A stretch of 33,628 nucleotides of DNA from Opitutia bacterium (lineage in GTDB: Bacteria > Verrucomicrobiota > Verrucomicrobiia > Opitutales > Seribacteraceae): the NCBI GenBank assembly GCA_018645725.1, contig JABGWD010000461.1, positions 1 through 33,628 on the forward strand. Direction: 5' to 3'. This document shows positions 19,416 through 32,198 of this stretch, piece after piece. The translations under genes and the position numbers were made by a program. Within the stretch, counting starts at the first letter, position 1. Every line of letters begins with the position of its first letter. Under the pieces are notes generated by a model, which saw nothing but the letters and a program-made list of their open reading frames with translations, was not told the DNA's origin and ran no database searches.

Positions 19416-20540
19416 TCAACCGCCCAAATAAGTTAGGGCGCGAGGAATCGGAAGGGAGTAAAAAGCAAAACGCTTGATCCCCTTTTCATTAAGTCTCGAT
19501 GAGACCTTTTCACGCAGATCGTCCACGCTGTTTGGCCCCACCGAAGTATAGACCAAAGCCCATTCCTCGTTTTGTTGTTGGCCGGTGCCTGAATCGGCAT
19601 CAAGCATAAGACCGAAATTCGTACTTACCCCGGGTGCCCCTCCCTCCAAGACGGAGTCATAAACTTCCTCGTAATTGTCACGGGGAACGATGCAGTAGAG
19701 TCCCACGAGGTTCTCAAGAAAGGTTGTCTTGAGAGCTTTGCTAGCACCTGATTCCGCAGCCGTTCTCCAATCTTTGCCTCCCTTTAGGTCATCCAAGGCA
19801 GATATTACCTGTTCCATGTTGGCACCGTGGGCGGAGGAAGAAACCGTGCTTGAGACATTGATAAGCCCGGAGCGGACGGGGATGGAATACATGAATCCCC
19901 TGCCTGGTTCGGTGATTTTTCCGGCACGCGCCATGTCGGCAAATACTTCGTCAGCTTCATTCTTGTCCACGATGCACCACACGAATTCCTTTTCGGGGCC
20001 CTTTGTGATGCGCAGAAGTGGAATCTTATCGCGCACTCCGCCACCTTCGCCAAACGTAACGGTTGGACCGGGTGCCCCTTTCAGGAGGGCGGCTTTGGCG
20101 ATTTCATCGGCTATTCCGATTTCGCAAATGCAGCAAATTGCCTCAAGTTCGGCGGCGTAATCACCGGAAGAACCATTGGCACCCTCTTCGGATGAGGAGG
20201 GGACGGGAAACTTTTCGGTGTGACGCATGTCATTGCAGCCTATGACGAAAACGGCTCCGGCACCCACTCGGGAGAGGTTTCCTGCTTGCACGGCCGCTTC
20301 GGTAACGGCGTTCACCTTGTCGTTGGGCACCAGAGTCTGCAGAAGATGCTGTTCGGGAGCAGGTGGCGGGAACATCCGTTGAAGGAAGCCACCCTCGTTC
20401 AGTACAGAACCCCGGGCGGTGACCTCGAAGATGCCGGAGGCTCCGGCCTTGCCGATGGCATCTGAGACAGGGACTACCGATTCCTTGGGCAGGATGAGGG
20501 AGAGAAGAGAGAAGTTCTCGCTTTGGTTGAAGTTGCTCAT
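19416..20540 (-). CDS. Triple P-II-like domain protein, partner of the DUF1538 membrane protein
   Basis: A 374-residue soluble protein. I read three consecutive ferredoxin-like (beta-alpha-beta-beta-alpha-beta) P-II-type units. Unit 1 (about 10-103): FSLLSLILP, helix, GIFEVTARG, loop, HLLQTLVP, helix, GAGAVFVIG. Unit 2 (about 130-224): LEAICCICE, helix, GPTVTFGEG, loop, EFVWCIVD, helix, GRGFMYSIPV. Unit 3 (about 276-366): LVGLYCIVP, helix, GVSTNFGLM, loop, EWALVYTSVG, helix, RFAFYSLPI. Units 2 and 3 share GAPG before the second strand. Normal P-II proteins are about 112-residue homotrimers. The start at 20540 lies one base after the stop codon of the DUF1538 gene (TAAGATG), so the two are translationally coupled; the longer open frame upstream is antisense-like sequence within that gene. 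The likely job is sensing a nucleotide or metabolite and controlling the membrane protein. No membrane segment is present. Confidence 0.75.
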   Translation of the reverse strand: MSNFNQSENFSLLSLILPKESVVPVSDAIGKAGASGIFEVTARGSVLNEGGFLQRMFPPPAPEQHLLQTLVPNDKVNAVTEAAVQAGNLSRVGAGAVFVIGCNDMRHTEKFPVPSSSEEGANGSSGDYAAELEAICCICEIGIADEIAKAALLKGAPGPTVTFGEGGGVRDKIPLLRITKGPEKEFVWCIVDKNEADEVFADMARAGKITEPGRGFMYSIPVRSGLINVSSTVSSSAHGANMEQVISALDDLKGGKDWRTAAESGASKALKTTFLENLVGLYCIVPRDNYEEVYDSVLEGGAPGVSTNFGLMLDADSGTGQQQNEEWALVYTSVGPNSVDDLREKVSSRLNEKGIKRFAFYSLPIPRALTYLGG

Positions 20541-20541
20541 C

Positions 20542-22782
20542 TTAGGCGGTCTCCGGTGCGGTTGCGGTTTCGTCCTCATCGGCCTTGGGTTTCTTTCGGA
20601 CGATAAGCCCAACGGTGAGAACGGTAATGATGGGTCCGATGGAAGCCAGGGCAAGAACTCCAAAGCCATCGATGGCTCCGGTCTTTGATCCAATGCCAAG
20701 GCCCATCGCCAAAACGAGTGGCACGGTGATGGGTCCAGTGGTAACGCCTGCGCTGTCCCAACCGAAGTTCACGAAATCCTCGCTCGAAAGGTAGGTGATC
20801 AACATCAAGATTAGGTAGGGTGGAACAAGCAGGTACCAAAGATCGAGATTAAAAGCAATCTTAGCCACTCCGGTGGAGATACCAAGCGCAACGCCCGTGG
20901 CAACGGTTTGCATGAGCAAGCTCTTCTTGAAAGCGCCGACGGTGATTTTTTCCACCGTGGCGCCAAGCGCATTAAGGGCAGGTTCGGCCAAGGTGGCTCC
21001 GTAGCCCAGAATAAAACCGAAAAGGATCGCCAAAGCTTTGCCCATGTTGGAGGAGGCAAACATCGGATCAACGAAACCTTCGGCAGCCCAAGGCTCAATG
21101 GAGGCAAAACTGGACACTACGTTTCCGCCGAGTTGCTCCCCCAATGGGGTCAGACCGAGCGCTATGCCCAAGTTAAAGAGACCCATGCCTACAACTGCGC
21201 AGGCAATTCCAATGAATAATTCGTCGTAGTGCTTCGGGGGTTGCCTAAGACCGACGACAAGAACAATCAACAAGATGGAACACAGGGGAACAATCGCCCA
21301 AAGGGCTCCTTCGATTGCGCCGCGGTCCTGATCCGGTCCGTCTAAACCTTTCTCAGTTCCAATTACTGCGTCCGAAGACAATTCATCTGGTTCGTTGTAG
21401 ACAATCTCTCCACTCGCATCGCTATAAATATCTTCTCCTGCATCCAGCAAGCCATTTCCGTTCGAATCTTCATCAGGCTTGAAGGTGTTTGGAAAGAAAT
21501 CAAAGTTGTTGGTCAGGGCCGCCATGATTTCAGTTTTAGGATTCCACACTTCATCGGGTGTATCCACGCCATCTCTCACAATGATGGTATTGGTGCCGGC
21601 CACTTGAACGGTCTCACGGGATCCATTGTCTTCCGGATCAAGTGGAGTGGAAGTTAATTCGGCTTCGGCGATTTGGGTTTGCAGGCTGTATCCATCGGGA
21701 AGCTTTCCATTCTTGCTCAACTCTTCTCTAACCTCGGCCAAATCTTTTTTGGAAAGAGAGCGCGCAGCATCCCCCCCGGAAGCCCCACTGGCCGATGCCA
21801 ATCTTCTCTCCGCTACGACATCGCCGTATCGCTGGTAGCCTTTGTCATAGTTTTTGCCATACTTTTCTCCACCTTCCTTTTCAATGGCTATCGTATGCCA
21901 GTCTTCTTTTGGGAATCCATTTTCCTCGGTATGATAAGTGGCGAAGTAATAGTCCTTGGTTTCAAAGAGGAAAGTGGCATAGCAGAGAACTGCAAGAATG
22001 GGAAAGAGAGAGGCAAGCGTGACGACACCAAAACCGGTATTGCTCGAACCCCCAGTCGAAACAATGCGGCAAACCCCAATGCCGAGGGCAAGAACGAGCG
22101 GTACGGTGACCGGTCCGGTCGTTACAGCACCGCAGTCCCAAGCCAGACCGAGCACGTGCTGAAGTCGATCATCCGAGAATTGAAAATACAGCGTAAAAGT
22201 GGAAAGAACAAGGACGCCCACGTAAATGAAAGGCTTGAGAGACCAGCCTTTGTAAAAACGGAGCACACCCAGAAGAACGGCAATACCCACTCCCGCTCCC
22301 ACGCAATTCACGAGGTTGGTGGCTCCGGTATTGAGAATGGTCCACAACAAGGGGGCAAGCGTTGGATCAACACCGGAACCTGCTGCTCGCAACACGCCGA
22401 TAGCAGGTTCGGCGAAGGTAGCAAAAGCTCCCAGGACAAAGCCGAAAGCCAAGCTTGCAGGCAGGCATGGGATACCAAATATCTTTTTACGTGGAAGAGT
22501 GGACCCGAGAGTCTCCCCTAGCGGCATAAGCCCCAAACGGAGTCCTTCCATGAAAAAGGCGAGCCCAATGATTACAATGCCTATTCCGACCGCGATCATC
22601 AAGGAGTACACAATGGGCAAGCCGAGGACCAGCAATTGGAACACGACAAGGTAAAGAATGATGAACCAAACGCACTGAATTTGCTCGACTACCTTGTCCT
22701 TGGCAAAGGAAAGGATGATGCTCAGCTTTTGCCTGAAAGACAACTGAAGTTTCTTTGTATCGGATGATTGTTCAGGGCACAT
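20542..22782 (-). CDS. Duplicated DUF1538 integral membrane protein, putative transporter
   Basis: The 746-residue product consists of two homologous membrane halves. Matching blocks are GLAFFMEGLRLGLMPLGETL / GLFNLGIALGLTPLGEQLGG, ATFAEPA (121-127) / ATLAEPA (596-602), WDCGAVTTGPVTVPLVLALG (215-234) / WDSAGVTTGPITVPLVLAMG (675-694), and GFGVVTLASLFPI / GFGVLALASIGPI. The repeated TTGP-TVP block is the most conserved and is a good candidate for the substrate path. Between the halves is a hydrophilic insert of about 215 residues (276-490) containing a complete EF-hand-type loop at 439-450 (D439, N441, N443, G444, L446, D447, E450). The transported substrate is unknown; DUF1538 has no settled function that I know of. 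It is coupled to the P-II-like gene downstream and is 93 bases downstream of the lipoprotein gene. Confidence 0.85.
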   Translation of the reverse strand: MCPEQSSDTKKLQLSFRQKLSIILSFAKDKVVEQIQCVWFIILYLVVFQLLVLGLPIVYSLMIAVGIGIVIIGLAFFMEGLRLGLMPLGETLGSTLPRKKIFGIPCLPASLAFGFVLGAFATFAEPAIGVLRAAGSGVDPTLAPLLWTILNTGATNLVNCVGAGVGIAVLLGVLRFYKGWSLKPFIYVGVLVLSTFTLYFQFSDDRLQHVLGLAWDCGAVTTGPVTVPLVLALGIGVCRIVSTGGSSNTGFGVVTLASLFPILAVLCYATFLFETKDYYFATYHTEENGFPKEDWHTIAIEKEGGEKYGKNYDKGYQRYGDVVAERRLASASGASGGDAARSLSKKDLAEVREELSKNGKLPDGYSLQTQIAEAELTSTPLDPEDNGSRETVQVAGTNTIIVRDGVDTPDEVWNPKTEIMAALTNNFDFFPNTFKPDEDSNGNGLLDAGEDIYSDASGEIVYNEPDELSSDAVIGTEKGLDGPDQDRGAIEGALWAIVPLCSILLIVLVVGLRQPPKHYDELFIGIACAVVGMGLFNLGIALGLTPLGEQLGGNVVSSFASIEPWAAEGFVDPMFASSNMGKALAILFGFILGYGATLAEPALNALGATVEKITVGAFKKSLLMQTVATGVALGISTGVAKIAFNLDLWYLLVPPYLILMLITYLSSEDFVNFGWDSAGVTTGPITVPLVLAMGLGIGSKTGAIDGFGVLALASIGPIITVLTVGLIVRKKPKADEDETATAPETA

Positions 22783-22875: not shown

Positions 22876-24162
22876 TTACAGGCTCCAACTCGCATTCGCC
22901 AAGGTCAGAGACAGCTTGTTGGCCCCCGTTCGAAGAACAACCGGCACGTCCCAAGTTACGCCGATCTTACCCAAGGATGCCGTGCCCACTACGAAGAATT
23001 TGCCGGACGGAAGGTTTTCCAGGGTAGCCGCACCGTTAATATCGGTTCTTACCCTCTGCCCCTGACCATTCTCAACCAATTTCAAAAGCAAAGATCTGAT
23101 GTTCTTTTGAACGTTTGGAAACAAAAATGAGTTTTTTCTGGAACGAGCCCATAACTCCGCATAGGAATCGATCCCCGAAAAATCGGAAAGTTCGACCCCG
23201 CCCTTTCTCAGGACGCCTTCGACGTCTTCATCGATAATGAAAAATTCGGTGTAGAAAGCCTCCTTGTTCTTCCCGTTCAAAGCAGTTACCACGGCATCGA
23301 ATTGCAGGTTGCATCCACCGGAAAACAATCGGGTTTCCTTAACGGCATCGACTGCGGGGGCGACGGGACCCAAGGAGGAGACGATTTGGGAAAGATCTTT
23401 CTGCCTGGGCGACAACCTGGAACCGGAAAGCTTCTTCGACGGGTTGAGTTCCAATACGCTGATTCTTTCCTCCAAGGAATCGTTTCGGATACGCAAATCC
23501 TGAATTTCCTTTGACTTGATGTGCAAATTGCCCCGTAGGTTTTTGACCTCGGCACGAAGGCCAAAAAGTTTGTCGCTTGCCGATTCGTCCGGTTTCAAGA
23601 CGGAAACCGTTTGTTCGAGACTCTTGCCCTTCAACCGGCTGATCTCAGTGACAAGTTCCTGGTTCAGCTTGGTCAGGGAGGCAATCGTCCTATCCTTGCG
23701 ACTGTTGATTTTGCGTAATTCGTCAATCGACCTTTGATGAGAAATTGTACCTTCCTCCAAATTCGAAAGCGCTTTTTCGGCTTCATGGTCAGCCAAAACC
23801 GATTTGGAATCAACCGGTTCACCAGACAGTGCAGGAGTCTCTTCACTAACGTTTGGATCCAAAAGGGCGAGACCGTCCACTTCCACGCCAGGACGCGACT
23901 CTGCAAAATCTTCAGCTCCCGTTGCCGTCGATGGGAGAAACGTCTCCCCCTCGTCCAGGAAGGACTCCCAGTCCTCGGCAATTTCAGGATCAGCGTCGAC
24001 AAGAGATGGCAAGTCATCACTTTCCGGATGCAGGTCCTCGTCAAAGGCAGTTTGGTTTGCATCGACAGGGGATTCGGATTCGTCAGTCCCGCAACTGCAA
24101 ATGAAAATTGACGTTAGCAACAAGACGAAGAGCGAAGTGAATTTGGGGTAGATTAGTTTCAT
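22876..24162 (-). CDS. Coiled-coil lipoprotein, function unknown
   Basis: The 428-residue product begins with a lipoprotein signal (MKLIYPKFTSLFVLLLTSIF followed by ICSC; Cys24 is the likely lipid-modified residue) and then a very acidic stretch, where Asp at +2 is not present but G-T-D follows. Residues about 135-260 form a coiled coil (SIDELRKINSRKDRTIASLT and EISRLKGK). The C-terminal third contains GAATLENLPSGKFFVVGTAS and WDVPVVLRTGANKLSLTL, which looks like a small beta-sandwich of the carboxypeptidase-regulatory/CNA-B sort. I chose ATG 24162 because it opens directly on the signal peptide; an extra 17 residues upstream do not fit. It lies upstream of the DUF1538 gene on the same strand and diverges from the long coiled-coil gene. 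No specific function is recognised. Confidence 0.8.
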   Translation of the reverse strand: MKLIYPKFTSLFVLLLTSIFICSCGTDESESPVDANQTAFDEDLHPESDDLPSLVDADPEIAEDWESFLDEGETFLPSTATGAEDFAESRPGVEVDGLALLDPNVSEETPALSGEPVDSKSVLADHEAEKALSNLEEGTISHQRSIDELRKINSRKDRTIASLTKLNQELVTEISRLKGKSLEQTVSVLKPDESASDKLFGLRAEVKNLRGNLHIKSKEIQDLRIRNDSLEERISVLELNPSKKLSGSRLSPRQKDLSQIVSSLGPVAPAVDAVKETRLFSGGCNLQFDAVVTALNGKNKEAFYTEFFIIDEDVEGVLRKGGVELSDFSGIDSYAELWARSRKNSFLFPNVQKNIRSLLLKLVENGQGQRVRTDINGAATLENLPSGKFFVVGTASLGKIGVTWDVPVVLRTGANKLSLTLANASWSL

Positions 24163-24267
24163 GCGTTGAAAAAAGAAAAAATTGTACTCAAGTATCTTTG
24201 CAAGCACAATCATTCATCGCTCAATCTTGTTGTTTACAATTTTCGTTCCAGAAGATAAAGGTTTGGC
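24163..24267. promoter_or_regulatory. Divergent promoter region between lipoprotein and coiled-coil operons
   Basis: These 105 bases separate two gene groups reading away from each other, so both promoters should lie here. The sequence is AT-rich. AAGG at 24258-24261 is a reasonable Shine-Dalgarno site six bases before the ATG at 24268. No clear site is seen for the lipoprotein start. I could not assign -35/-10 pairs with confidence. Confidence 0.5.
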
Positions 24268-26862
24268 ATGTCTCAAGTATCCCCCGAGGAGGCTGAAATC
24301 CTATTGCAAGAGAATCGTTTTTTAAAACAGACAATTCTTGCGCTGAGGAATGAATTGGTAAACAAAGGGCAGCAACAGGACGCCATTCATCAAAAAAGCC
24401 TGCGTTTCCTTGATCAACAAAATACTTCGCTCAAGGAAACGGTTGAAGAACTCAGGGAGGAGCTTGATGGAAGCCTGGCAAAGGCTGAGGACGACGTACA
24501 AAAGCACAAACAAGTTCATCTCAACGAACAAAAGCAGCTCAAGGAGCTCATCGGTAACCTCAGAAATGGATTGGAAGAAGCGAAGGACAAGGCTCGGGAT
24601 GAATCCCAAAGTATCCTGTCGACCGCAAACAGGGAAAACCTCGACCTCAAAAATACCATTGCCGAACTGAGAACGGAAATCGACCGGAGGGAATTCGAGA
24701 AGGACGAATTGGTCCAAAAGGAAAAAAGCAAGGCAAACCGGGAAATCGAACAACTTAGGGTTTCATCGCAAAACCTCCGGTTGCGATTGGACGGAATGGC
24801 AGCTGAACATGAAACTGACCTGCAAAAGACCCGATCCTCCGCAAATTCGGAAACCCAATCTCTCAAGAATTCGATCGAGGCGTTGAGGGGCGAACTGGAC
24901 AATGCCCGCAACCAGCAAGAGGAAGCAGTCCAACGGGCCGTTTCCGAATATTCCGCCGAAATAACCTCGCTTAAGGCCACCTTGTTTCTAGCCAGAGAGA
25001 AAATGGATAGGCTCAAAGCGGAAAAGGAGGACAGTTCGCAAAAACTCTCCAGCAATCACGCAACTGAAGTCAAATCCCTCAAGGAGACAATAGGCACACT
25101 AAGAGAGGAACTCGACCTTGCTTCCGTCAGGCAATCGGAGGCAGTGCAAATTACCCAAAACAAATCCAGGAACGAAATCAGGCAACTGAAAGAATCGCTT
25201 GCCAAGACAAGGGAAGGTTTGGAGGGAGCCAAAATCCGGGAGGACGATCGGGTTCAGAGAGCAAGAGTGGCTTCGGCAAGGGAGATTGAATCGCTGAAAT
25301 CGACGATTTCGGAGCTAAGGGACGAATTGGATCAAGCTTCCGTGGAAAGAGAGGAGGCCGTTCAGAAGGAAAGATCCTTGGCTCAGGCCGAAATCCTTTC
25401 CCTCAAGCATTCGATCGGCATGCTGAGGGAAAACATGGAGACAGCCAAAGCCCGAGAAGAAGAAAACGTACAAAAGGCCGTCTCCACAACGAATTCCGAG
25501 ATCCGCTCTCTCAAAAATACCGTCTCCCAACTTAGAGACGAGCTTGAACAAGCAGTGCTCGACAAAGACAAGGCCGTGCAGTCAGTGCAATCGGCTTTTC
25601 AGGTCGAGACCAAGCAACTCAAGGTTTCCCTTCTTCAGCTGAGGCAAAACCTTGAAAACACAAAGGCTCGGCAGGACGACCGCGTACAGCGCGCAATAGC
25701 ATCTCATGCATCCCTGAACCAAACTCTCCAGAATACGATTGGCGAATTAAGGAACGAACTGGACAAAAGCACAGTCATCCGGGAGCAGGAAGTTCAAAAC
25801 GCAGTCTCCTTCGCCAACAAGGAGATTCAACAGCTCAAAGTTTCACTCACTTCGACAAGGCAAAGCCTCGAGGAAGAAAGGTCACGGAACGAATCCACCG
25901 TTCAACGGGCGATACTTCGATCCGAAAACGAGATTCGCTCCCTCAAGTCGGTTGTACAATCCCTCCGGGATGAACTCGACAAAACCCACGCGCAGCAAGA
26001 GGACAGGGTCAGGGAAGCCTACTCGGCCGCTCATGCCGAAAACAACCAGTTGAAGCTTTCGCTGCAAAATCTCAGGATCCAACTAGAGCAAACGAGAGGC
26101 AAGCAGGACGATCTCGTGCAACGAACGGTTTCGAAAAGTGAGGCTGAAAAAAAATCCCTCCGGGAGACCATTGAAAACTTGAGGGGAGAACTCGAGGGCG
26201 CGCAACACAAGGAATCCGAAAGCATTCAGAAAGTGGAAGCGCGAGCAGCGTCTGAAATCAAGTCCCTCAAAGACACCCTTTCTTCTACCCGTGAAAAAAT
26301 AGATCAAATTCTCGCCGAGAAGAACGCCCTCGTTCAATCGAACTTGTCACAAAAGGAAACCGAGATCAACTCACTCAAGCAAAGCATCTCGCAAATGAGA
26401 GAGGACATCGACCGAAAGGGAGTGGAGAGAGACGAAGCGGTGCAAAAGGCCCTGTCTTCCTCAGCCAAGGAAAACCAACAGCTGCGTGAATCCGTATCGA
26501 CCATGCGCAAGCAAGTCGAATCCGCCCGCAATCGACAGCAGGACGCCGTACAAAGAGCCACCAACGCAGCTAGCGGTGAAATTCGTTCACTTCGGGAAAA
26601 CATAGCCAAATTGAGAAGCGAGTTGGATGGAGCGGAATACTCAAAACAGGAAGCAGTGCAGTTGGCGTTGGCCACCCATCAGAATGAAATCAACCATTTC
26701 AAGAGGATGGTCAATGCATTGAGGGACGAAATTGATCAAGAGGGGCATTTGCACAACGAAAGCATACAAAAGGAAAAACAATTGAAAACGATGGAGTTCA
26801 AGGAACTTCAAGAAACCATCATCGAACTTCGATCCGAACTGGAAAAGACACATGGAAGATAA
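24268..26862 (+). CDS. Giant coiled-coil protein with exact 36-residue period
   Basis: The 864-residue product is almost wholly helical and hydrophilic, with no signal peptide and no membrane segment, so it is probably cytoplasmic. After an 18-residue leader it has 23 full units of exactly 36 residues and a final half unit of 18. Each unit follows L-K-x-x-[IVL]-x-x-[LT]-R-x-x-[LIM]-[DE] in its first half and x-x-[VI]-Q-x-A-x-S-x-x-x-x-E-[IN] in its second half. No unit has an insertion or deletion. Such a regular rod of about 860 residues would reach well over 100 nm as a continuous coiled coil. It resembles structural filament or scaffold proteins in general properties, but I recognise no named family. 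It overlaps the adenylate cyclase gene by 11 bases (its last codons contain that ATG), which argues for coupled expression. Confidence 0.88.
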   Translation: MSQVSPEEAEILLQENRFLKQTILALRNELVNKGQQQDAIHQKSLRFLDQQNTSLKETVEELREELDGSLAKAEDDVQKHKQVHLNEQKQLKELIGNLRNGLEEAKDKARDESQSILSTANRENLDLKNTIAELRTEIDRREFEKDELVQKEKSKANREIEQLRVSSQNLRLRLDGMAAEHETDLQKTRSSANSETQSLKNSIEALRGELDNARNQQEEAVQRAVSEYSAEITSLKATLFLAREKMDRLKAEKEDSSQKLSSNHATEVKSLKETIGTLREELDLASVRQSEAVQITQNKSRNEIRQLKESLAKTREGLEGAKIREDDRVQRARVASAREIESLKSTISELRDELDQASVEREEAVQKERSLAQAEILSLKHSIGMLRENMETAKAREEENVQKAVSTTNSEIRSLKNTVSQLRDELEQAVLDKDKAVQSVQSAFQVETKQLKVSLLQLRQNLENTKARQDDRVQRAIASHASLNQTLQNTIGELRNELDKSTVIREQEVQNAVSFANKEIQQLKVSLTSTRQSLEEERSRNESTVQRAILRSENEIRSLKSVVQSLRDELDKTHAQQEDRVREAYSAAHAENNQLKLSLQNLRIQLEQTRGKQDDLVQRTVSKSEAEKKSLRETIENLRGELEGAQHKESESIQKVEARAASEIKSLKDTLSSTREKIDQILAEKNALVQSNLSQKETEINSLKQSISQMREDIDRKGVERDEAVQKALSSSAKENQQLRESVSTMRKQVESARNRQQDAVQRATNAASGEIRSLRENIAKLRSELDGAEYSKQEAVQLALATHQNEINHFKRMVNALRDEIDQEGHLHNESIQKEKQLKTMEFKELQETIIELRSELEKTHGR
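24322..26859 (+). repeat. Tandem 108-base (36-codon) coding repeat, 23 copies plus a half
   Basis: The unit starts at residue 19 of the coiled-coil protein and repeats 23 times before a final 18-residue half unit at 26806-26859. Examples of unit starts are LKNTIAELRTEID, LKSTISELRDELD and LRENIAKLRSELD. Copies are well diverged at the DNA level but keep the exact length, so selection on protein length rather than recent duplication maintains the pattern. Confidence 0.85.
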
Positions 26863-29176
26863 AAAACAATCCGATTCAAAAAGCCCCGGAGGTTCGAATT
26901 CCAAGAGAACTTCGAGGTTTGCCGAGATGCTTTTGCAGGTCACGACTGATTTGGCAAAAACCAAAAGCCTGGACGAAGCCCTCGAGGTTCTCATCAAGAT
27001 AACCACCTCCACCATAGGGGCAGAGCGAGGCACGATCTTTCTCAATGATCCTGCGACCGGTGAGTTATATTCGAGAATTGCCCAAGGCAATTTTCGGAGG
27101 GAAATTCGCATTCTCAACACCAAAGGGGTAGCCGGTTGGGCCTTCACCAAGAACGAAGGGGTCATCATTCACGATGCCTACAAGGACGAGAGGTTCAACA
27201 AGGCGGTGGACGTGCGAACCGGTTTTCGAACCAAGAGCATTCTCTGCGCGCCGCTGCGTACCGTGAACGGGGAAGAGATCGGGGTTTCCCAAATTCTGAA
27301 CAAGATTGACGGGGAATTCGATCAGAACGACCTGGATATGCTCGAGGCCATGACCGAGCAAGCGGCCATCGCGATTCAGGGAAATATCATCGTCGAGCAA
27401 ATCGAGGCCGCCCGGAAGCAGGAACTGGAGTTTCTGGACGTCGTCTCGCAAGTATCCTCCGAACTCGAGCTCACTCCCCTGCTCCAGAAGATCATTACCA
27501 CGATCTCGACCATGCTCGACTGTGAACGGGCCACCCTCTTCATCAACGACGAGAAGACCAACGAGCTTTACACCGAGGTCGGTGAAGGACTGGATGAAAA
27601 ATCAACCATCCGCATTCCGAATCATCTGGGTATTTCGGGAGCGGTTTTCACCTCGGGCAAAGCAGTCAACATTCCCCATGCCTACGCGGATTTGAGGTTC
27701 AATCCGTCCTTTGACAAGCAAACCGGTTTCTTCACCCGCTCCATCCTCTGCATGCCTGTCTTCAGCAAGGCGGGAAAAACCATCGGGGTCAGTCAGGTCC
27801 TTAACAAAAGAGGCGGATCCTTCAATGCCGAAGACGAGAAGAGGCTTGCCGCTTTTACCTCCCAAATATCCATGGGCATTGAGAACGCCAAGCTCTTCGA
27901 TGATGTTCAGAGTCAAATGAACTACTCCCAGAGCATCCTTTCGAGTATGCACGACGCCGTGCTTACCTTTGATGAGCAGGGAGTGGTCAAGACTTGCAAC
28001 CCGGCGGGTTTGCGCATTCTGAAAGTTCCTCACGAGGCGGCCATACTCGAACAACAAGCATCCGGTCTTTTCGGGGGCCCCAACGAATGGCTCCTTCAAA
28101 AGCTCGAAGCGGTCCATGAAAACGAGGAGTTTCTTGACGCCGAGCTGCAAATCGAGGGTGAAACCCTTTCCGTAAACATCACTTTGACCCCGCTTTTGGG
28201 GAAGAGTGAAAAGCGGAGCGAGGTGGATTCATCCCCCCAGGACAACATCATCGGAGCGATGCTCATGATCGAGGACATCAGTTCCGAAAAAAGGATGAAG
28301 TCCACCATGTCCCGGTACATGGATCCGGAATTGGCAGACCAATTGATGACGGCAGGCGGGAATGACGACGACATCATGGGGGGCAAGCAAAGCGTGGGCA
28401 CCGTCTTGTTCTCCGACGTCAGGAGTTTCACTACCATTACCGAGGAATTAGGCGCCCAGGGCACCGTCAAGTTGCTCAACGACTACTTCACGATCATGGT
28501 CGACTGCATCACGGACGAAGGGGGAATGCTGGACAAGTTCATCGGCGATGCGATGATGTGTATCTTCGGGACGCCCGTCCCGCATGATGATGATCCGGAC
28601 CGTGCCGTACGGGCCGCCATCCGAATGATGACCGACCTGAAGGTATTCAACGACAAAAGATCCACCGAGGGCAAGATGCCCATCGACCATGGAATGGGGA
28701 TCAACACCGACTCCATCGTCTCCGGAAACATCGGTTCCCCCAAGAGGATGGACTATACGGTGATCGGAGACGGGGTGAACTTGGCCGCCCGCATCGAGAG
28801 CGCCTGCAAGCAATACGGCGCCCACATTCTCATAAGCGAGTTTACCCACAATGCGGTCAAGGCAACCTATAGAACGCGGCAGGTCGATTACGTAATCGTC
28901 AAGGGAAAAACCGAACCGGTCGGGGTCTACGAGGTTCTGGATTTTCATGATGACGAGTCCTACCCGAATCTAGTCGAAGCCCTTGGCTTGTTCAACGACG
29001 GATACCGCAGTTGGAATCAAGGGAAATGGGATCAAGCGACCAAGCTCTTTAACTCGGTCAAGAAAATCAACCCGGACGACAAAGCCGCCCAACTCTACCT
29101 GGACCGTTGCAGTCACATGAAGAAAAACCCTCCCAAGGGTACCTGGGACGGCGTCTGGGTGATGACCTCCAAATAA
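26852..29176 (+). CDS. GAF-GAF-PAS class III adenylate cyclase
   Basis: The 774-residue soluble product should make cAMP under control of its sensor domains. Residues about 38-178 and 205-355 are two GAF domains, each with the paired pattern LNDPATGELYS / INDEKTNELYT and IGVSQILNK / IGVSQVLNK. Residues about 365-490 look like a PAS domain (MHDAVLTFDEQGVVKTCNPA). The cyclase domain (about 515-700) has both metal aspartates (D522 in LFSDVRSFT, D566 in DKFIGDAMM), the adenine-selecting pair K562 and D634 (DYTVIGDGVN), and the transition-state residues N643 and R647. About 65 residues with one or two TPR-like helices follow (YRSWNQGKWDQATKLFNSVK). No membrane segment is present. Its DNA is visibly richer in G+C than that of neighbouring genes (a sampled 60-base line at 28741 is 60%). 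It lies 20 bases before the TPR gene. Confidence 0.95.
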   Translation: MEDKKQSDSKSPGGSNSKRTSRFAEMLLQVTTDLAKTKSLDEALEVLIKITTSTIGAERGTIFLNDPATGELYSRIAQGNFRREIRILNTKGVAGWAFTKNEGVIIHDAYKDERFNKAVDVRTGFRTKSILCAPLRTVNGEEIGVSQILNKIDGEFDQNDLDMLEAMTEQAAIAIQGNIIVEQIEAARKQELEFLDVVSQVSSELELTPLLQKIITTISTMLDCERATLFINDEKTNELYTEVGEGLDEKSTIRIPNHLGISGAVFTSGKAVNIPHAYADLRFNPSFDKQTGFFTRSILCMPVFSKAGKTIGVSQVLNKRGGSFNAEDEKRLAAFTSQISMGIENAKLFDDVQSQMNYSQSILSSMHDAVLTFDEQGVVKTCNPAGLRILKVPHEAAILEQQASGLFGGPNEWLLQKLEAVHENEEFLDAELQIEGETLSVNITLTPLLGKSEKRSEVDSSPQDNIIGAMLMIEDISSEKRMKSTMSRYMDPELADQLMTAGGNDDDIMGGKQSVGTVLFSDVRSFTTITEELGAQGTVKLLNDYFTIMVDCITDEGGMLDKFIGDAMMCIFGTPVPHDDDPDRAVRAAIRMMTDLKVFNDKRSTEGKMPIDHGMGINTDSIVSGNIGSPKRMDYTVIGDGVNLAARIESACKQYGAHILISEFTHNAVKATYRTRQVDYVIVKGKTEPVGVYEVLDFHDDESYPNLVEALGLFNDGYRSWNQGKWDQATKLFNSVKKINPDDKAAQLYLDRCSHMKKNPPKGTWDGVWVMTSK

Positions 29177-29196: not shown

Positions 29197-30816
29197 ATGA
29201 ATGCCAAAGCGCACCTAGAGGAAGCAATTGCCCTCAACCCGGATTTTGCGGAAGCTTATTATAAGCTCGGTCTTCTGCTCAAGGAACAAGGCGACCAAGA
29301 AGCCCTTGAGCATTTCAGGAAAGCGGTTTCGCTCAATGCGGAATACGCCGAGGCAGAATGCGAGCTTGCAATAGCGCTGGTTGCTCAGAAGGATTTCGAG
29401 ACAGCCCGCAATCATTTTCTCAACGCCTTGGAAATCAATCCGAATTATGCAGATGCATATTTTCACTACGCTCTTCTTCTCGTTGAACTGAACGATTCCG
29501 AGGAAGCCAAGAACAACTTCGACAAGGTAACCGAAATCAATCAAAATTATGCTCCGGCGTACTTCCACAAAGCCAAACTTCTGACGAACGCAGACGATTT
29601 CGAAGAAGCCCGCAAAAACTACGAGACGGCACTCGACATCGATGAGAAGTTTACCGAGGCCCATTACTATATGGGGAAGTTGCTTTCCGGCGGTGTCGCC
29701 ACCGACAAGGAAGGAACCCTGATTGACAGGACTAACCTCCCGCAAGCAAAGGAACACTACCTCCGAGTCCTGAAAATCAACTCCGGTCACACGAAAGCCC
29801 TTTATAACTTGGCCGATATCCTCTCGACGGAAAAAAATTACGATGATGCGAAGAAATATCTTCTCAATGCGCTGGAGATAGACAGTTCCTACTCCAAGGC
29901 TCACTACTTGCTTGCGCGCGTGTACGCAGAATGCGGGAAGAGTGACAAAGCCAAGGAGCATTTTCAACTTTCCATTGAGCATTTTGCGGACAATGCCCTG
30001 GCTCACTTCAGACTGGGCGTCCTTCTCTTCGAGGAAAATGAAATGGAAAAAGCTGCCGAACACCTCAGGCAGTCCGTAACGATCGATTCGAATCATGCGG
30101 AAGCAAATTTTTATTTGGCGATGATTCTAAGAAGCGACGATGACCCGAGCTTGGCCAAAAAGCACTTTTTCAGAGCGCTTGACCTCGACCCTGACTATGC
30201 CCTGGCCTATTATGAGCTCGCGCACCACAGTGAGAAAAACGGCGATCTCAACGAAGCCAAGATACACTTTCAAAAAGCCACCGATATCGACCAGAATTTC
30301 GTCAAGGCATATTTCAACTTGGCAAGAATCCTGACGAATCCATCCGAGTATGACCAAGCGATCAGAAATTTCGAAACGGCTTTGGAAATCGATCCTGATT
30401 TCGCGGAATGCCATTATTGGTTTTCCAAAATTCTTATTTCCGGTGAGAAACTGGAGGCTGACGGAACCTTGATCAAGAAACCCGATCACGAGCGGGCCGA
30501 AAGACACTTGCGCAAAGCCATCAAGATCAACCCAAAATTCTACAAGGCTTTTTACCGCTTGGGATTGCTTCTCAAAGATCACGAAAAGTACGACGATTCG
30601 TTTGAAAACCTCACCAAGGCCATCAAAATCAACCCGAAGTTTGCAGAAGCGCACTACCACCTTGCCGTATTGCTGATGGATGAGGATGCTCGAAAAAGCT
30701 TGAAGACCAAAACAACGGAAGGCCCTCGAGGTTCCCCCAAAAAAGCCAAAAGAACCCCTGCCAAAAGACCTGCTGCAGGAAGAAAGCCCCCTCGGAACAA
30801 CAAGAGAACAGGATAA
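29197..30816 (+). CDS. TPR-repeat protein with basic C-terminal tail
   Basis: The 539-residue product is a chain of about fourteen 34-residue TPR units (for example NPDFAEAYYKLGLLLKEQGD, NPNYADAYFHYALLLVELND, DPDYALAYYELAHHSEKNGD). Two units carry an extra loop containing EGTLI or ADGTLI (near 29690-29745 and 30438-30500). The last 37 residues (503-539) are rich in Lys, Arg and Pro (SPKKAKRTPAKRPAAGRK), like the tail of a nucleic-acid-binding or histone-H1-like protein. There is no signal peptide, so it should be cytoplasmic. It starts 20 bases after the adenylate cyclase stop codon, with no clear Shine-Dalgarno site. It is probably a protein-binding scaffold; its partner may be the cyclase or the coiled-coil rod. 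Confidence 0.88.
   Translation: MNAKAHLEEAIALNPDFAEAYYKLGLLLKEQGDQEALEHFRKAVSLNAEYAEAECELAIALVAQKDFETARNHFLNALEINPNYADAYFHYALLLVELNDSEEAKNNFDKVTEINQNYAPAYFHKAKLLTNADDFEEARKNYETALDIDEKFTEAHYYMGKLLSGGVATDKEGTLIDRTNLPQAKEHYLRVLKINSGHTKALYNLADILSTEKNYDDAKKYLLNALEIDSSYSKAHYLLARVYAECGKSDKAKEHFQLSIEHFADNALAHFRLGVLLFEENEMEKAAEHLRQSVTIDSNHAEANFYLAMILRSDDDPSLAKKHFFRALDLDPDYALAYYELAHHSEKNGDLNEAKIHFQKATDIDQNFVKAYFNLARILTNPSEYDQAIRNFETALEIDPDFAECHYWFSKILISGEKLEADGTLIKKPDHERAERHLRKAIKINPKFYKAFYRLGLLLKDHEKYDDSFENLTKAIKINPKFAEAHYHLAVLLMDEDARKSLKTKTTEGPRGSPKKAKRTPAKRPAAGRKPPRNNKRTG
30810..30813 (+). promoter_or_regulatory. Shine-Dalgarno AGGA for the second TPR gene
   Basis: AGGA sits in the last codons of the first TPR gene, eight bases before the TTG at 30822. 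It supports TTG as the start. Confidence 0.5.
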
Positions 30817-30821
30817 ATTTT

Positions 30822-32198
30822 TTGGACGGCCTAACTGCAGAAGCCTTGCGGCACTTGGAAAAGGCATTGACCCATGAACCGAACCATGTACCGGCCCTCA
30901 TTGCCCTATCCAATGCCTACCTGAAACAAGGGAATTTTCCCGAAGTGGAAAAGTTATTGAAAAAAGCCCTTTCTTTCAGGCAAGATCAAAGTGAGGTCTT
31001 CTTTCTCATGGCAAGGTTGCTCGTGCTTCAGGATGATCATGAAGCTGCCGCAGAATCCATCGATGAGGCAATCAAACTCGAGGCTGATCAGCCCAAGTAC
31101 TACAGGCTTGGCTCCGATATCGCGAGGGAGCGGAAAAAAACGTTTGAACGGCAGCTCTTCCTCGAAAGGCTTATCGACTTGGAACCACTTGACGGGAAAG
31201 CGCATTACGAACTCGGAAAACTTCTGCACCACCCGGATGACTTCGATCGCGTAAAACTTCTTTTCGAAATTTCAATAGATTTGCTACCTGATGATACGCA
31301 ACCGATGTTTTCTCTTGCCCAACATCTTTATGCCGGAGAAAAGTCCTTGGCAGACGGGACCATTAGCGTCCAAAGAGAACCGGAAAATGCCAAGGAACTG
31401 CTAAGGGAAATTCTTTCCGTCGACCCTCGTGAAAGCAAGGCAAAGATTCTGCTTGCGGAAATTGAACTGAAAAGTGACGAGGAAATTGTTGCCACCCGCC
31501 TACTGGAAGAGGCCCTCGAAGACAAAAGAACAAAAGGAGAGGCTTCTTATGAGCTCGGCTTGATCTGGGAAAAGAAGGGAAACGCGGCCAAAGCCACGAG
31601 GTACTACAAGTCGGCCATGGAATACGAAGATTGGGAGGCATTGGGGGAGTTCCGTCTTGCCCTCGTCATGCTGGGGAAAGGTAAATCCAAGGACGCCGTG
31701 AAACACTTCGGGAAATGCATTTCTTCCTTCAAGAAAAAGGAGGGTCATTTGGTCAAATCAAAAGATCTTCACCTGGAAAAGTTGGATTTTCATGCATCCC
31801 GAAAGGAACTGGAATCCTTGCAGTTGATCAGGAAATGCCTTGGCGAAGCAAACTTGGGGATTTACAAATGCAATTACGAATCCCGAAATGACGAAAGCTT
31901 TTCACGATACTTGGATGAAGCGCTCATCCATTATCCTCATTATCCGGAAGCGAATTACGAAAAAGGATTGAGACATATCCAATCCGGTGAAGAGGAAAAT
32001 GCAAAAGAGCGGTTCGAAAAATCGGTCGAAGGCGACTGGAACCATTGGCCTTCGCACATGGAGTTGGCAAAAATTGCGAAGATTGGGAACGAATTGCAAA
32101 AGGCGGAAATGCACCTTAAGATCGTGCTTGATTTGGATCCAACCAACAAGGCGGCGTCCTCATTTCTGAAAAAAATTCAAAAGTCATCAAAGAAATAA
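30822..32198 (+). CDS. Second TPR-repeat protein
   Basis: The 458-residue product is made of helical TPR-type repeats, more diverged than in the previous gene (EPNHVPALIALSNAYLKQGN, EWEALGEFRLALVMLGKGKS-like units, and a final LDPTNKAASSFLKKIQ). It shares the unusual loop with its neighbour: AGEKSLADGTISVQREPENA at about 31332-31390. A TTG start at 30822 is used, six bases after the stop codon of the first TPR gene; no ATG is nearby. There is no signal peptide or membrane segment. It ends the rightward four-gene run and converges on pssA. The function is not recognised beyond protein-protein binding. Confidence 0.85.
   Translation: MDGLTAEALRHLEKALTHEPNHVPALIALSNAYLKQGNFPEVEKLLKKALSFRQDQSEVFFLMARLLVLQDDHEAAAESIDEAIKLEADQPKYYRLGSDIARERKKTFERQLFLERLIDLEPLDGKAHYELGKLLHHPDDFDRVKLLFEISIDLLPDDTQPMFSLAQHLYAGEKSLADGTISVQREPENAKELLREILSVDPRESKAKILLAEIELKSDEEIVATRLLEEALEDKRTKGEASYELGLIWEKKGNAAKATRYYKSAMEYEDWEALGEFRLALVMLGKGKSKDAVKHFGKCISSFKKKEGHLVKSKDLHLEKLDFHASRKELESLQLIRKCLGEANLGIYKCNYESRNDESFSRYLDEALIHYPHYPEANYEKGLRHIQSGEEENAKERFEKSVEGDWNHWPSHMELAKIAKIGNELQKAEMHLKIVLDLDPTNKAASSFLKKIQKSSKK

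Follow-up and report, generated by a model that had tools for sequence, protein, structure and literature searches.

To our knowledge, class III nucleotide cyclases that have tandem GAF domains work with no rod encoded by a separate gene, and a dedicated rod subunit, as the gene organization described below suggests, would be a new feature for enzymes of this kind. Among the rods themselves, the Scy/FilP/DivIVA-like proteins of Gram-positive bacteria are also very long and depart from the heptad pattern, being rich in hendecads and very weakly supercoiled (PMC9858780); they have a DivIVA-type N-terminal domain and their gene partners belong to the division machinery. Crescentin (PMC10873595) and the filament formers of cyanobacteria (PMC7002697) are likewise presented, in the abstracts of those two papers, as cytoplasmic coiled-coil rods lacking a catalytic domain, and SMC and Rad50 proteins are again long and regular helical rods, in this case with an ATPase head and a hinge.

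The locus studied here lies in a window of 33,628 nucleotides (the whole stretch of DNA that was analysed, contig JABGWD010000461.1 of an Opitutia bacterium), where a gene composed entirely of repeats runs into the gene of a cyclase:

24268..26862, forward strand: rod gene, 864 amino acids, that is, 24 units of 36 residues (12 alternating A/B pairs of 72 residues)
26852..29176, forward strand: partner gene, 774 amino acids, GAF-GAF-(PAS-like)-class III nucleotide cyclase, ending in a short TPR-like tail

Compared with the rods mentioned above, the one in the window shows no Pfam match to the DivIVA-type N-terminal domain at E 0.001, and a cyclase takes the place of the division machinery as gene partner. 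Its similarity to SMC and Rad50 is weak (43 bits against an NCBIfam cut-off of 567), and it has neither ATPase head nor hinge, since the whole 864-residue reading frame is repeat. No domain or sequence family of intermediate-filament-like proteins was found in the rods, PF00038 reaching 19-21 bits in two short relatives (cut-off 40) with no match in the window rod. Two features described below, length changes by exact units and a cyclase partner, are absent from the descriptions of crescentin and of the cyanobacterial proteins, as far as the abstracts go (PMC10873595, PMC7002697).

Printed at a width of 36 and counted from Met1, residues 1-864 of the window rod fall into 24 ungapped units, which is equivalent to the 18 + 23x36 + 18 arrangement counted in the earlier note, and proline is absent beyond residue 6. 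A BLOSUM self-comparison gave scores of 1.1-1.5 at lags of 36, 72, 108 and further multiples and of at most 0.09 at any other lag (maximum in 200 shuffles, -0.12), confirming the unbroken 36-residue period, with no unit gaining or losing a residue, that had been read by eye. Units are about 28-35% identical to each other. Moreover, even multiples of the period (72, 144, 216, 288, 360) outscore odd multiples of similar size, and shuffling of the unit order gave p = 1.5e-4 for a 72-residue A/B alternation in the window rod; among the complete rods of Opitutales, most had p below 0.05. The protein is thus more completely described as 12 x 72. Type A units approximate S-L-K-E-T-I-x-E-L-R-E-E-L-E and type B units Q-L-K-S-S-L-x-x-L-R-x-K-L-E, with opposite charges at shared positions (E28/E33/E35 in A, K28/K33/R35 in B). 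At the DNA level no tandem repeats were detectable in the rod gene, which indicates that the repeats are old, and its dN/dS of ~0.06 (dN ~0.06 and dS ~1.0 against the nearest relative) indicates strong purifying selection. The rod gene is thus real, old and selected.

Relatives were gathered by searching with the downstream cyclase, which yielded 79 loci from many phyla (80 with the window), mostly from metagenome-assembled genomes. With the near-invariant Arg serving to mark each unit, 904 spacings were measured in 68 relatives, and all of them were multiples of 36 (891 of 36, 12 of 72 and one of 108, the longer ones spanning units that scored below threshold). Insertions between units in homologues, which the earlier note had named as evidence against its reading, were therefore not seen in any of the 904 spacings, and the pattern that it hoped to find, a unit number that varies while the period stays at 36, is precisely what the homologues display. 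The number of units goes from 3 to 24; complete Opitutales rods have only 16, 18, 20, 22 or 24, an even-number pattern with few length changes behind it, as the counts of related species are not independent, and odd numbers occur elsewhere. Outside Opitutales, short rods of 4 units (~22 nm) whose total length is odd or non-integral are common. Not one proline occurs in the 34,152 residues of the repeat cores. Pairs of 24-unit orthologues aligned without a single indel down to 39% identity; their cyclases, 87-94% identical, mostly required gaps. Some 22-unit pairs (30-41% identity) showed small compensating gaps in automatic alignments with no net change in length, which we attribute to noise in the alignment. 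In one relative, ~67-70% identical where the sequences align, there are 18 units; the two proteins differ in length between residues 365 and 577 of the window rod, consistent with a loss of six units. A more distant case is found in an alphaproteobacterium, in the position equivalent to that of the rod:

L083:5380-5931: divergent rod with a different 36-residue unit (ALRDTMEKMRNEYEEKLDKERA...)

This rod suggests that the period is kept while the sequence of the unit drifts. Minus-strand reading frames of period 36 in two other loci (L063 and L074) were considered as second rods and rejected as antisense shadows.

The geometry of the helix follows from the same number. The hydrophobic Fourier (FFT) peak of the window rod lies at 3.600 residues, with ten core positions per 36, which arithmetically make two heptads plus two hendecads, a better match than the five heptads plus one proposed in the earlier note. 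An undistorted helix has 3.63 residues per turn (PMC9858780), and a period of exactly 36 (18/5 = 3.60) falls on the left-handed side of this value, in contrast to hendecads (3.67), which fall on the right-handed side; the 68 rods of 4 units or more all gave 3.592-3.608, away from what a hendecad-dominated rod would give. From the difference between 3.60 and 3.63 we computed a drift of the hydrophobic stripe of about -30 degrees per unit and a left-handed supercoil with a pitch of ~65 nm, compared to ~15 nm for heptads, and the rod should for this reason be close to straight. An AlphaFold2 model of a 4-unit relative (L061, 155 amino acids, single chain, alignment of 7 sequences) is one helix over residues 2-153 with a mean pLDDT of 93. 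The weak supercoil that had been predicted for the protein is supported by the period, the pitch and this single-helix model alike. Fully extended, at 0.15 nm per residue, the window rod would measure ~129 nm. As 36 residues make ten turns, the stripe and the near-invariant residues of each unit (L18, R26, Q5 and E14, in our own phase numbering) should recur on one side of the helix every 5.4 nm; R26 is conserved in 98% of units and Q5 and E14 in 88% each, and these three were computed to return to one azimuth at each unit.

As for the partner, its PF00211 catalytic domain scores 81.7 bits (gathering cut-off 21.9), and its domains align to solved structures of tandem-GAF class III cyclases, the GAF domains to 1ykd (CyaB2) and the cyclase domain to 3r5g (CyaB) and 2w01, whose GAF-GAF and cyclase domains it reproduces. 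The cyclase domain contains FSDVRSF, DKFIGD and DYTVIGDGVNLAAR. We take these motifs to hold the two metal-binding Asp, the adenine-selecting Lys plus Thr/Asp, and the catalytic Asn/Arg. By domain and active-site residues the partner is a class III adenylate cyclase, with ATP as its predicted substrate. Its start lies 11 bases inside the end of the rod gene (overlap 26852-26862), and translation of both proteins is thus probably coupled.

The rod is found directly upstream of the cyclase in 71 of the 80 loci, mostly overlapping it or separated by short gaps (from -65 to ~+100 bp), in Verrucomicrobiota, Neomarinimicrobiota, Magnetococcales, Mariprofundales, Alpha- and Betaproteobacteria, Planctomycetota and others. 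The other nine comprise the divergent alphaproteobacterial rod, two contigs cut at that point, one broken cyclase gene (L088) and five distant cyclases (37-40% identity). Co-occurrence was examined in 243 genomes, 195 from Verrucomicrobiota and 48 from the class that contains Magnetococcales, counting cyclases of at least 55% identity. Rod and cyclase were present in exactly the same 16 genomes and both absent from the remaining 227 (Fisher p 2e-25, a value that ignores relatedness). A rod profile revealed five real rods in Verrucomicrobiota, and the search with the cyclase led to exactly those five genomes; all four rods that were new, found by the rod profile alone, adjoin a cyclase. A sixth match of the profile (genome G234) was discarded as false, with six stops and no cyclase nearby. 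In the other class, the 11 genomes with a rod are also the 11 with the cyclase (55-57% identity), and the rod is absent from two genomes whose only cyclases are distant (31-41%). An obligate genetic pairing of rod and cyclase is therefore well supported within the sampled groups. In addition, both genes were found as a single one in a metagenome-type genome of the same class (G281), the sole rod-cyclase fusion found and the sole rod match in that genome:

L149:4270-6936: rod-cyclase fusion, a single reading frame of 888 amino acids

The order within this protein is two good units 36 residues apart, a degenerate third, a proline-rich linker and then GAF-GAF-PAS-cyclase.

These data make it very probable that the downstream adenylate cyclase has the rod as its dedicated non-catalytic subunit. 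The best explanation as a whole, that this subunit works as a nearly straight coiled-coil stalk with two functional ends, is one we favour with some reserve; once the rod is taken as a subunit, the stalk has an even chance or slightly better. The C-terminal end of the rod would bind the soluble GAF-GAF-PAS cyclase, as the order within the fusion points to, its N-terminal end would bind an anchor or a second partner, and the middle would serve as a spacer in which any insertion other than a whole unit would break the register. We infer the physical binding, the role as a stalk, the assignment of partners to ends and the oligomeric state of the rod. That the N-terminus carries another partner is consistent with a second type of fusion, placed directly upstream of a cyclase:

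L065:4683-5969: metallo-beta-lactamase-fold hydrolase with a three-unit rod at its C-terminus

This hydrolase shows sub-threshold similarity to models of RNase Z and of cyclic-nucleotide phosphodiesterases. A metallo-hydrolase as a regular neighbour of the rods was rejected, as the motif search located it in L065 only.

Conservation along the rod was compared between orthologues, where its two ends stand out:

24268..24375, forward strand: first (N-terminal) unit, 60% identity between 24-unit orthologues, against 37-39% for units 2-4
26644..26859, forward strand: final two units, 64% and 71% identical between orthologues, against mostly 45-57% in mid-rod; putative cyclase-docking end

Within both the 24- and the 22-unit classes of Opitutales, conservation is higher at the end units than at most of those in the middle, and between length classes the first and last units are more alike than random pairs of units; middle units ~10-13 of the 24-unit rods are also fairly well conserved. 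When distant phyla were compared, end units were no more alike than middle ones. Orthologous units are 50% identical and non-orthologous ones 28-31%; in 638 of 1080 cases a unit was best matched by the one of the same index, so the units have not been homogenised. Length changes by whole units and the raised conservation of both ends fit the idea of a ruler, in which the number of 36-residue units (72 in Opitutales) in an obligate subunit kept across several phyla would set the distance or register between cyclase and anchor. We regard this quantised form of the stalk as a tentative proposal, with the odds somewhat against it.

A spacer alone leaves the recurrence of R26, Q5 and E14 in nearly every unit unexplained, a hint that the individual units may have some function. 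The residues flanking the stripe, so strongly conserved and at one azimuth in every unit, would suit a multivalent scaffold on which each 36-residue unit, or each pair of 72, docks cyclases or other partners along one face, spaced by 5.4 or 10.7 nm, either raising the local output of cAMP or letting the cyclases act together; a variation from 3 to 24 whole units would also be natural for a scaffold that works by copy number. The same residues could nevertheless serve coiled-coil packing equally well, the overlapping or close gene starts suggest similar amounts of rod and cyclase whether there are 4 units or 24, and in Opitutales it is the end units that are conserved above most of the middle, all of which makes the scaffold unlikely to us. 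A plain stalk also leaves the A/B charge alternation of Opitutales unexplained. In rods of the myosin type, a charge pattern of this sort sets the axial stagger, and the alternation, with opposite charges at the same positions, could accordingly belong to rods that associate laterally or by their ends into a bundle or cytoskeletal filament, decorated or sensed by the cyclase. Lateral matching of charges was better near a parallel shift of 40 residues than at 36 or 72, and slightly best in an antiparallel register that repeats every 72, these being small scores without a null; moreover, of 61 rods, 25 have a total length exactly divisible by 36, so that an end-to-end junction could keep the period. 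On the other hand, the short rods of odd or non-integral length outside Opitutales speak against such an assembly, and no head or tail domain typical of established filament proteins turned up in the family scans, which leaves the filament a little more doubtful still than the scaffold.

Another interpretation would be a generic coiled coil, kept regular by repeat turnover (unequal crossing-over or gene conversion) and linked to the cyclase by an inherited operon order with no functional contact. Proteins with unusual coiled-coil repeats are indeed common, and SMC, Rad50 and other coiled coils are matched only below threshold in the family scans. However, the lack of homogenisation between units, the undetectable DNA repeats and the pairing across phyla, recovered in both directions of search and reinforced by one fusion, largely contradict this interpretation, and we consider it very improbable. 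Altogether, the two-ended stalk attached to the cyclase stays as the reading that we prefer.

Other genes complete the locus in the window:

29197..30816, forward strand: TPR protein, directly downstream of the cyclase
30822..32198, forward strand: another TPR protein, with which the gene run probably ends
22876..24213, reverse strand: 445-amino-acid protein of no family, with a lipoprotein-like Cys-containing leader and a central coiled coil
20542..22782 and 19416..20699, reverse strand: DUF1538 protein, then an apparent PII-like regulator, divergent neighbours

In 43 of 70 loci, chiefly from Opitutales and Neomarinimicrobiota, the cyclase is followed by a TPR-like gene (period 34), and there may be a rod-cyclase-TPR cassette. 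Between the start of the gene for the 445-residue protein and the rod gene lie 54 bases, and a divergent promoter region may therefore be common to both. In its single chain the DUF1538 neighbour matches, below the cut-off, UmpA as well as UmpB, the two subunits of a Na,Li,K/H+ antiporter, and DUF1538 motifs are syntenic across Opitutales loci and recur beside the rod-cyclase pair in the alphaproteobacterium with the divergent rod. As a functional partner, DUF1538/UmpAB was rejected, the association being mainly Opitutales synteny. With regard to the Pycsar anti-phage system, in which a pyrimidine cyclase stands beside an effector activated by cNMP, the cyclase domain is generically similar to PycC models but sits in a GAF-GAF architecture, and there is no effector gene among the scanned neighbours.

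No family covering the rods was found in Pfam, NCBIfam, PADLOC or PHROGs. Pfam matches such as ApoO, Filament, Ax_dynein_light or SMC were rejected as generic coiled-coil matches, none of them consistent; DUF7607 passed its cut-off marginally in one relative (28.5 against 27, L054), ApoO more clearly in another (42.6 against 31.4, L063), and PHROG 5328, of unknown function, matched weakly. In the literature available as open-access full text, a description of the rod-cyclase pair was not found. The rods constitute an unnamed protein family that crosses phyla and resembles coiled-coil scaffold or stalk proteins. The constraint on them is extreme, with no insertion, deletion or proline found within the repeat cores, and their tie to one enzyme offers a concrete experimental handle on the family. 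If the rod is a subunit of the cyclase, it would represent a dedicated structural partner of a bacterial class III adenylate cyclase, of a kind for which we found no description. Moreover, if length in whole units matters, molecular rulers could be cleanly tested with these proteins, as could the geometry of coiled coils at 3.60 residues per turn, which natural examples, dominated by heptads, seldom reach.
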